Source of the DNA: Deltaproteobacteria bacterium
GTDB taxonomy: Bacteria > Desulfobacterota > Deferrimicrobia > Deferrimicrobiales > Deferrimicrobiaceae
Direction of reading: 5' to 3'
Length of the DNA stretch: 64,000 bases
NCBI GenBank assembly: GCA_021815305.1
Contig: JAKAHC010000002.1
Coordinates: forward strand, 1 to 64,000
Under the pieces are notes generated by a model. It was given only the letters and a program-made list of their open reading frames with translations. It made no database searches and was not told the origin of the DNA. Of the stretch, positions 35,095-41,473 are shown piece by piece. The translations under genes and the position numbers were made by a program. Position 1 is the stretch's first letter. Every line of letters begins with the position of its first letter.

Positions 35095-36192
35095 ATGACC
35101 GCGCAAGTCTCCGAAGGGACCGATCTCGTCGAGTGGTATTACGAGCGGGGGTTCACCGACGGGTTGCCCGTAGTTCCTCCGACGCAGGAGAAAGTCGACG
35201 CCGTGGTCGACGCGCTGGGGGGCGACCCGTCGCACCTCGAATGCCGGGTGCCGCCGAGATGGGGAGGCTTGACCCGGCAGGTGCTGGCGGTGAACATGGT
35301 CATGGCGGGATGCAGGCCCGAGTACGCCCCCGTGGTCCGTGCGGCGCTGCTCGCGCTATGCGAGACCGCGTTCAACCTGAACGGGGTGCAGGCGACGACG
35401 CACGTCGCCTGTCCTCTCCTCGTCGTGAACGGGCCGATCGCGAAGCGGATCGGAATGAACGCGGGTTGCAACGTCTTCGGATCGGGAAACCGCGCCAACG
35501 CGACCATCGGCAGGGCCATCCGGCTCGTCATGCTGAACGTCGGAGGCGGCTGGCCGGGCGATCTGGACAAGAGCACGCTCGGGCATCCGGGGAAATACAC
35601 GTACGCCGCCGCCGAGAACGAGGAGGCGAGCCCCTTCGCCCCTTACCACGTCGAGAAGGGGTACCGGGCCGAAGACTCCACGGTGTTCGTGTTCGCGGCC
35701 GAGGCGCCCCACTGCGTCGTGAACCACGTCGCCAACGACCCGGAAGGCATCCTGGACAGCATGTGCTCCGCGATGAGCACCATCGCGCACAACACCGCGG
35801 TGAGCCATGGGCACTGCGTCGTCGTGCTGGGCCCGGAGCACGCGGCCACCATCGGCAAGTGCGGGTGGAACCGCAACGACGTCAAGTCGTACCTGTGGAT
35901 GTATTCCGGGAACGCCTTCGGGGAACTCGCCTTCCGGCACCGGTACGGGAAGGTGTACAACCGGAACCTTCCTCGCTGGTGCAGACGGGACCCCGACGCG
36001 CGCATTCCCATCGTCCCGAGTCCGGAAAACATCCACCTGTTCGTGGCGGGCGGCGCCGCGGGACGTTTTTCCGCGTTCATCCCCGGGTGGGGACACATGT
36101 CCACTCCGGTGTTGCGCCCCGTCGACCCCGCCGCGGGCGGTCCGGGACCGCAGCAGGGTCACGGCTGCGCCGACGGCGCCTGTCTGCTTTGA
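35095..36192 (+). CDS. Conserved protein co-encoded with the UGSC selenoprotein
   Basis: A 365-aa soluble protein with an excellent ribosome site (GGAGGAGG) before ATG 35095. I do not know its function. It has many cysteines (MAGCRPEY, HVACPLLV, NAGCNVFGSG, APHCVVNH, DSMCSAM, SHGHCVVV, IGKCGWN) and ends in GHGCADGACLL, a possible metal or redox tail. The N-terminus LVEWYYERGFTDGLPVVPPT looks like a substrate-binding or dimer segment. It precedes the selenoprotein gene by 38 bp; the pair forms an operon, so it probably shares a pathway with, or is a partner of, the selenoprotein. Confidence 0.75.
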   Translation: MTAQVSEGTDLVEWYYERGFTDGLPVVPPTQEKVDAVVDALGGDPSHLECRVPPRWGGLTRQVLAVNMVMAGCRPEYAPVVRAALLALCETAFNLNGVQATTHVACPLLVVNGPIAKRIGMNAGCNVFGSGNRANATIGRAIRLVMLNVGGGWPGDLDKSTLGHPGKYTYAAAENEEASPFAPYHVEKGYRAEDSTVFVFAAEAPHCVVNHVANDPEGILDSMCSAMSTIAHNTAVSHGHCVVVLGPEHAATIGKCGWNRNDVKSYLWMYSGNAFGELAFRHRYGKVYNRNLPRWCRRDPDARIPIVPSPENIHLFVAGGAAGRFSAFIPGWGHMSTPVLRPVDPAAGGPGPQQGHGCADGACLL

Positions 36193-36230
36193 CAAGGTTC
36201 GATCATCCGGTTTTCCGGAGGGAGGATCCC

Positions 36231-36782
36231 ATGAGGCAACGAGATGCAGGCGGGAAATGCGTACCGGTATACGATCCCCGGGGGATCGTGGAGGCGGAAT
36301 CCAGGATCGTCGCACCGCGGGTGACGGACCTGAACGGGCTGCGGTTGGGGATCATGGACAACACGAAGTGGAACGCGAACAAACTCCTCCGCCGGACCCG
36401 GGACCTGCTCCAGCAGAAATTCACCTTCGCGGAAGTCAACTATTACCGCAAGGAGAGCTTCTCGAGGATTGCCGCCGACGAACTGATCCGGCGGATCGCG
36501 GCGGGGAACGACGTCGCCCTGACCGCGATCGGCGATTGAGGTTCGTGCACGTCATGCTGTATGCATGACAGTATCCGCCTGGAGTCGCTGGGGATCCCGA
36601 CGGCGGTGATCGTGACTTCCGAGTTCCTCCACGAGGCGCAAGTGCAGTGCGCCGCATTGGGCATGGAGGGGTTGCATCCCGTGGTGATCCGGCACCCGCT
36701 CAGCTCCCTGACCGAGGTGGAGATCCAGGGGCGGGCCGAGGAGGCGCTTCCCCGGGTGGTCGCGACCTGGTCGGGAAAGTGA
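36231..36782 (+). CDS. UGSC-motif selenoprotein (in-frame TGA = selenocysteine)
   Basis: A 183-aa protein read through TGA at 36537-36539. Before the TGA: MRQRDAGGKCVPVYDPRG to NDVALTAIGD (102 codons). After it, in the same frame: GSCTSCCMHDSIRLESLG to VVATWSGK, ending at a TGA at 36780. The motif U-G-S-C gives the family its name (UGSC (seleno)proteins; others have CGSC). Both halves look coding and continuous: LGIMDNTKWNANKL and IPTAVIVTSEFLHEAQ are strands and helices of one alpha/beta fold. GGAGGGAGG precedes ATG 36231. A bacterial SECIS-like hairpin follows the codon. Ordinary gene calling splits it into two false ORFs. The biochemical role of the family is unknown; a redox enzyme is likely. 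Confidence 0.88.
36540..36575 (+). promoter_or_regulatory. Bacterial SECIS element for the UGA at 36537
   Basis: GTCATGC (36551-36557) pairs perfectly with GCATGAC (36563-36569), leaving the 5-nt loop TGTAT. The loop G (36559) lies 20 nt after the UGA, within the 16-37 nt window known for bacterial SECIS elements, and is among the first two loop bases as required. The hairpin lies inside the coding sequence, as always in bacteria, and would bind SelB. Confidence 0.8.
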
Positions 36783-40101: not shown

Positions 40102-40135
40102 AAGCTTTCCGCCGCGAGGTAAGGAAGGGATCGAA

Positions 40136-41473
40136 ATGGAAGTCACCCGAACGTTGGCGCGGTTTCTCGTGTCCGCCGGACCGGAGGACGTGCCGGCTCC
40201 CGTCCGGAAGGAATGCGTGCGCACCCTCCTCAACTGGGTGGGGGTCGCCGTGGGAGGTTCGCGGCACCCTGCGGTCGAAAACGCGGTTGCGGCGATCTCC
40301 CCCTTTGCGGGTCCTCCGCAGGCGCGACTGCTGGGACGGACCGAGCGGTGGGACATTCTGAACGCCGCGCTGGTGAACGGCATCAGTTCCCACGTCTTCG
40401 ATTTCGACGACACGCACCTCAAGACGGTCATCCATCCGTCGGGCCCCGTCGTTTCCCCGGTTCTGGCTCTTGCGGAATACCTGCCGGTTTCCGGGAGGGA
40501 GTTCCTGCATGCCGTAACCCTCGGCATCGAAACGGCCTGCCGGGCAGGCAACGCCGTCTATCCGGACCATTACGAGGCGGGATGGCATATCACCGGAACC
40601 GCCGGAAGCATCGGCGCGGCGGCCGCCGCCGGGATCCTGCTCCGTCTCGACGAGCTGCAGATGACGTGGGCTCTGGGGCTTGCGGCTTCCCAGCCGGTGG
40701 GGTTGAGGGAATCGTTCGGGTCCATGAACAAGAGCTTCAACCCCGGGCGCGCGGGGCAGAACGGCCTGACGGCGGCCCTGCTGGCGTCGAGGAACTTCAC
40801 CAGCTCCCGCCGGATGCTGGAGGCGAAGCGGGGATGGGGCCGCACGATCAGCACCCGGCATGACTTTCTGGAGATCACGGGGGAGCTGGGGCGGCGGTGG
40901 GAGATCTCGTTGAACACCTACAAGCCTTTCGCGTGCGGAATCGTGATCCATCCCGCCATCGACGCCTGCATCCAACTTCGCAAGGAACACGGTCTTACGG
41001 CGGACCGGATCGATCGGATCGTTTTGAAAGTCCATCCCCTCGTGCTGGAGCTCACGGGCAAGAAAGAGCCGGACGAGGGGTTGGAAGGGAAATTCAGCGT
41101 CTATCATGCGGCCGCCGTGGCGATCGTTTCCGGAAAGGCGGGGGAGAAGGAGTTCGGCGACCGCGCGGTGCGGGACCCGGCCGTCGTCGCGCTGCGCGGA
41201 CGCGTGACGGCCCTCGCGGATCCTTTCCTGAAGGAGGACCAGGTGGAAGCCACCGTCGTCCTGCGGGACGGGAGCGAACTTCGCAAATTCGTGGAACATG
41301 CCGTCGGAAGCGTGGAGCGGCCGATGACCGACGGCGACCTGGAAGCGAAGTTCGCGGACCTTGTCGAGGGGATCCTCGACTCTCGACGGACCCGCGACCT
41401 GGTCGAAGCGTGCTGGGGTGTGGAAAGCCTCTCCCGGGCGGCCACACTGGCGGAAACCGCGGTTCCCCGCTGA
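40136..41473 (+). CDS. MmgE/PrpD family protein
   Basis: A 445-aa protein of the MmgE/PrpD (2-methylcitrate dehydratase-like) fold. Landmarks: ALVNGISSHVFDFDDTHLKTVIHPSGPVVSPVLALAE, GWHITGTAGSIGAAAAAG, and FACGIVIHPAIDACIQL. Members dehydrate or isomerise 2-methylcitrate, cis-aconitate or similar tricarboxylates. No prp genes are nearby, so the substrate is open. AAGGAAGGGA precedes ATG 40136, 34 bp after the multidomain regulator; it may belong to the same transcript. A terminator follows. Confidence 0.88.
   Translation: MEVTRTLARFLVSAGPEDVPAPVRKECVRTLLNWVGVAVGGSRHPAVENAVAAISPFAGPPQARLLGRTERWDILNAALVNGISSHVFDFDDTHLKTVIHPSGPVVSPVLALAEYLPVSGREFLHAVTLGIETACRAGNAVYPDHYEAGWHITGTAGSIGAAAAAGILLRLDELQMTWALGLAASQPVGLRESFGSMNKSFNPGRAGQNGLTAALLASRNFTSSRRMLEAKRGWGRTISTRHDFLEITGELGRRWEISLNTYKPFACGIVIHPAIDACIQLRKEHGLTADRIDRIVLKVHPLVLELTGKKEPDEGLEGKFSVYHAAAVAIVSGKAGEKEFGDRAVRDPAVVALRGRVTALADPFLKEDQVEATVVLRDGSELRKFVEHAVGSVERPMTDGDLEAKFADLVEGILDSRRTRDLVEACWGVESLSRAATLAETAVPR

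Follow-up and report, generated by a model that had tools for sequence, protein, structure and literature searches.

A UGSC-family selenoprotein gene and its constant companion in a Deferrimicrobiaceae genome, with profile similarity suggesting kinship to the selenocysteine domain of GrdB

The UGSC gene and its upstream partner

Two adjacent genes and four smaller features were located on the forward strand of the window, which is the whole stretch of 64,000 nucleotides analysed from contig JAKAHC010000002.1 of a Deferrimicrobiaceae genome (Table 1). As the preliminary description had proposed, the frame of the downstream gene runs from its ATG to an in-frame TGA after the residues ALTAIGD and continues in the same frame as GSCTSCCMHDSIRLESLG to a stop at 36780-36782, likewise a TGA. 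The read-through protein matched PF24696 (UGSC) over model positions 2-171 of 172 with 194.5 bits (cut-off 25, E 2e-57) and NF041046 (UGSC_fam) with 160.9 bits (cut-off 125, E 2e-47), and a single family model matched continuously across the TGA is not attributable to chance. These full-length matches bear out the assignment to UGSC, a known family without an assigned function, and the gene is a new member of a selenoprotein family already described in 2008. In metagenomes of aquatic origin UGSC ranks with the most abundant selenoproteins, 255 Sec forms having been counted in GOS (PMC2398784). The expectation that standard annotation would split such a gene was borne out by plasmid relatives: UGSC of the Paracoccus ferrooxidans plasmid (L204:6387-6956) is divided at the Sec TGA into two hypothetical ORFs, and on the Acidovorax sp. 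T1 plasmid (L193:6983-7273) the public annotation truncates the UGSC ORF at this codon.

Table 1 Features of the UGSC locus (positions are those of the window)
Feature	Position	Strand	Basis
Partner gene, 365 aa, unannotated, ends in CADGACLL	35095..36192	+	Adjacency or fusion to UGSC
RBS-like GGAGGGAGG 5' of the UGSC ATG	36217..36225	+	Reading of the sequence
Selenoprotein gene of the UGSC family (183 aa and a stop codon; residue 103 is Sec)	36231..36782	+	Full-length PF24696 and NF041046 matches
In-frame TGA read as selenocysteine (U103)	36537..36539	+	TGA in homologues, Cys in others, sel machinery
Cys106, candidate resolving Cys of UxxC	36546..36548	+	No exception among 48 aligned rows
Bacterial SECIS hairpin with a stem of 7 bp and a loop of 5 nt (TGTAT) whose G is at 36559	36551..36569	+	Conservation, covariation

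The U-G-S-C motif occupies residues 103-106 and was invariant in the 48-row alignment. A redox centre of the form U-G-S-C-x-x-C-C had been suggested, of which the UxxC part holds throughout the family while the remainder does not. U103 and the Cys at +3 (C106) were the sole motif residues kept family-wide, and C109 and C110 varied, the C-C after the serine being present in the close subfamily only and replaced by SW, SG, PA or LA in wider relatives. The longer centre is therefore too broad because its second and third Cys are not family-wide. Two relatives (L134 and L135) carried U-G-T-C, which is the spelling found in GrdB.

The partner gene lies directly upstream and ends 38 nt before UGSC. 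It is a hypothetical gene in current annotation, and no Pfam or NCBIfam family was matched by its product. Conserved residues of the partner include D22, G23, P29, T30, N112, G113 and E174. A relative of the partner adjoined UGSC in every related locus for which the DNA reached far enough and was adjacent or fused to UGSC in all eight plasmid loci examined. In the phylum scan the two were fused in one chain, with UGSC N-terminal and the partner C-terminal, at 13 of 29 loci. Where the genes are separate, the partner precedes UGSC in the window and both orders occurred among the plasmid relatives. The partner is an obligate companion of UGSC, and this constant adjacency or fusion is strong evidence that the two proteins act as one enzyme. 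Fusion of UGSC to a previously undescribed domain, named Unknown_1, is on record (PMC2398784).

An AlphaFold model of the partner had a pLDDT of 82.9. A class I fumarate hydratase fold was considered and set aside as uninformative, the Foldseek match being weak with a low TM (E 1e-3, TM 0.27). The C-terminal tail reads CADGAC-LL in the window and CVDGTC in the consensus and was missing from many relatives; it is predicted to be flexible and may act as a thiol shuttle. Sporomusa termitida and Vibrio europaeus have partner-containing genes of about 570 aa (L199 and L200), next to which genes for aconitase X and DUF126 were found.

Selenocysteine decoding of the in-frame TGA

The proposal that the in-frame TGA encodes selenocysteine is now virtually certain, with the conserved TGA, the Cys-type relatives, the sel genes and the conserved SECIS all in agreement. 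The codon was TGA in 83 of 83 homologous stretches where it was readable, the window gene among them. Among eight plasmid homologues it was TGT or TGC (Cys) in six (Roseovarius, Natrinema, Halalkalicoccus, Arthrobacter, Embleya and Variovorax) and TGA in two (Acidovorax and Paracoccus versutus), and alignment at the U position thus gave the alternation of Sec and Cys that had been anticipated among UGSC homologues. Roseovarius THAF8 and Arthrobacter ERGS1:01 carry natural Cys forms of the pair. The genome of the window (2.77 Mb in 13 contigs, 97% complete) was searched for the sel genes, whose absence would have spoken against selenocysteine, and selA, selB, selC and selD were all present, including a tRNA-Sec (74.1 bits, over the cut-off), SelA (E 1.6e-136) and SelB (302 bits). 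The gene for SelD (G000:C5:107630-108625; L104 and L108) has one in-frame TGA, and SelD of this genome is probably itself a selenoprotein. At 20 of 80 homologous loci selA, selB or selD lay within about 6 kb of UGSC, and SelB and SelA (Pfam) were among the commonest operon neighbours of UGSC relatives.

The hairpin described downstream of the TGA was confirmed, with 36551-36557 (GTCATGC) pairing with 36563-36569 (GCATGAC) and the loop G lying 20 nt past the TGA. It was kept in 60 aligned relatives with covariation at three pairs, of which pair 18-30 occurred as G-C, G-U and A-U, and 95% of the cells in the alignment were paired compared with at most 50% when it was slid. In these relatives the codon for Ser108 was TCG or TCA in 60 of 60, that for C109 was TGC in 59 of 60 and that for C110 was TGT in 58 of 60. 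Fixed codons together with pairing across relatives indicate selection at the RNA level on top of the protein constraint. The folding energy of the single sequence was unexceptional (27 of 200 shuffles folded equally well, z -1.16). In the second UGSC copy of locus L071 the SECIS stem was altered by a compensatory change from a C-G to a G-C pair.

Two other readings of the TGA were weighed and rejected. That the gene is a pseudogene, or that the TGA is an ordinary stop followed by a separate downstream part, would agree with the way standard annotation divides such genes, as in Paracoccus ferrooxidans and Acidovorax, and is nevertheless very improbable, being already refuted by conservation. 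The TGA was shared by all 83 homologues with the protein conserved on both sides of it, and sel genes and a conserved SECIS were present. Homologues without a C-terminal half were specifically sought; none of those fetched stopped at the TGA position and the C-terminal half was conserved in all. Reassignment of TGA throughout the genome (for example to Trp or Gly), rather than recoding to Sec, has nothing in its favour except the open frame and its probability is negligible. The partner and UGSC genes both terminate at TGA, which is thus also an ordinary stop in this genome, while haloarchaeal and actinobacterial relatives have Cys at the recoded codon and the genome encodes both tRNA-Sec and SelB.

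Genomic neighbours, copy number and origin of the operon

The neighbours of UGSC relatives included TctC receptors, acyl-CoA dehydrogenases, UbiD, FAH and TRAP transporters, and a CoA-transferase III was located beside UGSC at 20 of 80 loci and at five plasmid loci. These are genes of organic-acid uptake and CoA-ester metabolism and constitute a catabolic setting. The thioredoxin reductase gene trxB was part of the UGSC and partner cluster in Roseovarius, Arthrobacter (with trxA) and Variovorax, which are three plasmid loci, two of them Cys-type, and adjoined UGSC in 0 of 80 Sec-type loci. The presence of trxB and trxA beside the pair is as expected for a dithiol-driven reductase. A gene of the MmgE/PrpD family is located at 40127-41473 of the window, 3.3 kb downstream. 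Five homologous loci also had such a gene, which may be coincidental.

At least eleven UGSC copies were listed in each of several genomes (G033, G198, G208 and G252). Many of these copies were fusions of UGSC and partner of about 600 aa, each containing a single TGA, and the expansion of selenoproteins in these genomes is unusually large. Synergistota carry multiplied grdB paralogues that serve different substrates (PMC10838667), and by analogy the many UGSC copies per genome would represent substrate diversification. A second, divergent pair of UGSC and partner was located a few kb from the first in two loci (L071:9903-11470 and L068:7836-9418). Fused UGSC proteins from five loci (L125, L127, L128, L130 and L131) had hydrophobic N-termini resembling signal peptides, which suggests that these fusions are exported selenoproteins.

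In the family tree, UGSC of the window paired with that of Herminiimonas (71% identity, support 99/80) inside a betaproteobacterial group, and UGSC proteins from the window's own phylum were placed elsewhere. The UGSC gene was found in 0 of 10 genomes of the same family in the phylum scan. A neighbouring gene for a T2SSE/PilT-type ATPase shared 75-82% identity with relatives from the same bacterial family, in which another gene lies on the upstream side (judged by eye to be FolD-like in two of three). This identity and the other upstream gene in the relatives point to a contig that is native and an operon of UGSC and partner that was probably acquired. In the nearest relative (L011) selB, selA and a CoA-transferase adjoin the pair, and the window has kept the pair only. 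UGSC sequences from metagenome-assembled genomes titled Klebsiella pneumoniae or Bordetella parapertussis (L035, L057 and L059-L061) were nested among environmental betaproteobacteria, and these titles look wrong.

Fold, kinship with GrdB and proposed function

The AlphaFold model of UGSC (pLDDT 92.0) had alternating strands and helices with Sec103 after strand 3 and ahead of helix 3, a predicted Rossmann/flavodoxin-like domain. A Foldseek search of this model against the PDB returned weak and mostly generic Rossmann matches with no thioredoxin in the best 50, and sequence searches of the PDB gave chance matches only, with no GrdB structure found by sequence. The thioredoxin topology (beta-alpha-beta-alpha-beta-beta-alpha with CxxC at the first helix) did not appear in the model. 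A "likely thioredoxin-like fold" has been published for the family and is unsupported by the AlphaFold model, Foldseek or profile comparison.

Comparison by hhalign placed UGSC against the catalytic (Sec) domain of GrdB (4.6e-8, score 59.6) with U aligned on U, U-G-S-C-T-S-C on U-G-T-C-T-R-C and HPLS on HPLG. A broader UGSC set gave 1.1e-9, with GrdB scores of 65-70. Shuffled columns reached a maximum score of 22 compared with 59.6 for GrdB, masking of the motif left a GrdB score of 39.6 in the same register, and 17 comparisons with unrelated single sequences gave scores of 12-20, including 17 for thioredoxin. By hmmscan, the NCBIfam model gly_red_sel_B matched 8 of 30 UGSC proteins (best E 4.1e-6), and some of the 30 matched the GrdF, GrdH or PrdB models. 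The curated GrdB cut-offs were not reached, relatives scoring far below those of the NCBIfam GrdB models (L134, for example, at 17-22 bits), and PF07355 matched neither the UGSC protein of the window nor any of the 30. Profile similarity to short PrdB-like proteins was weaker than that to GrdB. These comparisons indicate that the UGSC domain and the Sec domain at the C-terminus of GrdB are homologous, and with all GrdB-family scores below the curated cut-offs UGSC is a distant homologue and not a GrdB.

The resemblance to GrdB, GrdF and GrdH (PF07355, TIGR01917/TIGR01918) extends over a strand, U-G-[ST]-C-T-x-C, a helix, a GIP strand and HPL[SG], and both systems are multi-component with many copies in some genomes. 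UGSC differs in being without the N-terminal half of GrdB and in its partner, which stands where GrdB has the pyruvoyl GrdE but is unrelated to it. PrdB of D-proline reductase (TIGR04483) and PrdB-like short selenoproteins share UxxC, a similar size and a strand-Sec-helix-strand core with UGSC, whereas UGSC has another N-terminal part and another partner, and no pyruvoyl PrdA was identified. The full-length likeness to PF24696 and NF041046 includes U-G-S-C, SECIS and the alternation of Sec and Cys, and in the selenoprotein itself there is no difference from that family. Profile comparison found no similarity of the partner to GrdE, GrdB or PrdB, and a kinship of the partner with these was rejected. 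As the partner is unrelated to GrdE-like profiles, the system lacks the electrophilic pyruvoyl component that known members have. In Synergistota a GrdB-like protein whose partner, as in UGSC, is not of the pyruvoyl type has been proposed to cleave C-F (FarB/FarE, acting on fluoroacetate; PMC10838667), and members of the GrdB superfamily may therefore act on further kinds of C-X bond with no pyruvoyl group involved. FarB is itself a GrdB homologue, however, and is set beside UGSC by description rather than by sequence.

We favour, with moderate confidence, the interpretation of 35095-36782 as a two-gene operon for a two-component, dithiol-driven Sec reductase of organic-acid-like substrates. 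In GrdB and PrdB the Sec acts as nucleophile, a thiol resolves the selenium-carbon adduct and a dithiol is the final reductant (PMC10298544), and GrdB has UxxCxxC (PMC13188914). No biochemical result on UGSC was found in the literature searched, and its chemistry is inferred from homology to GrdB and PrdB together with gene context; nucleophilic attack with reductive bond cleavage is the most likely course. On this reading the UGA is decoded as selenocysteine via the SECIS hairpin, the UGSC domain is a Rossmann-like catalytic unit that shares ancestry with the Sec domains of GrdB and PrdB, and a small organic acid or derivative would be bound between this domain and that of the partner. Sec103, located where the helix following the third strand begins, would then attack an activated carbon (or heteroatom) of the substrate, Cys106 would resolve the selenium adduct to a selenenylsulfide, and the selenolate would be regenerated by a dithiol donor, for example the thioredoxin system.

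A different role is implied by the family description, and repeated in a 2026 review, in which UGSC would have the thioredoxin fold and serve as a thiol/selenol oxidoreductase for protein disulfides or peroxides. The likeness of UxxC to the CxxC of thioredoxin agrees with this, but the predicted topology is a Rossmann-like alternation of strands and helices in parallel, thioredoxins are absent from the best 50 PDB fold matches, the hhalign score was 17 for thioredoxin compared with 65-70 for GrdB, and the neighbours are catabolic, so that such a role is improbable. Somewhat less so, though still unlikely, is that Sec103 has no redox role and serves as a nucleophile or acid-base catalyst comparable with the cysteines of the Asp/Glu racemase or maleate isomerase folds, with UGSC and partner forming an organic-acid isomerase, lyase or hydratase. 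A Rossmann-like domain and neighbours in carboxylate and CoA-ester metabolism would suit such an enzyme, as would aconitase X/DUF126 beside two partner-containing genes and the MmgE/PrpD genes of five loci and of the window. The second Cys of UxxC is invariant, however, a sign of selenenylsulfide chemistry, the homology is to reductases, and trxB and trxA occur adjacent to the pair, all of which speak against such an enzyme.

More broadly, we lean slightly towards UGSC and its partner as a third, widespread branch of the GrdB/PrdB superfamily, in which an unrelated partner would replace the pyruvoyl subunit for dithiol-dependent reductive cleavage of organic acids, a genome could carry as many as a dozen paralogues to serve different substrates, and aerobes and haloarchaea would be among the hosts. 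If true, selenoether-type chemistry would extend from amino-acid-fermenting anaerobes to aerobes and haloarchaea. Placement beside GrdB and PrdB with a named partner would make the target for assays a two-component dithiol-dependent reductase of small carboxylates and not a thioredoxin-like protein. The obligate partner, the link to GrdB and the correction of the fold were not found in the literature searched, which took in a minority of the subscription journals, and are reported here as new.

The genome of the window encodes a second selenoprotein, of the PrdB type (VPV-U-PVC-HQSVGLVARHVEAAGIPT), with an in-frame TGA (L091:1273-2163, corresponding to G000:C13 near 175209-175454). It matched TIGR04483 with an E of 1.9e-51, yet below the cut-off of that model.
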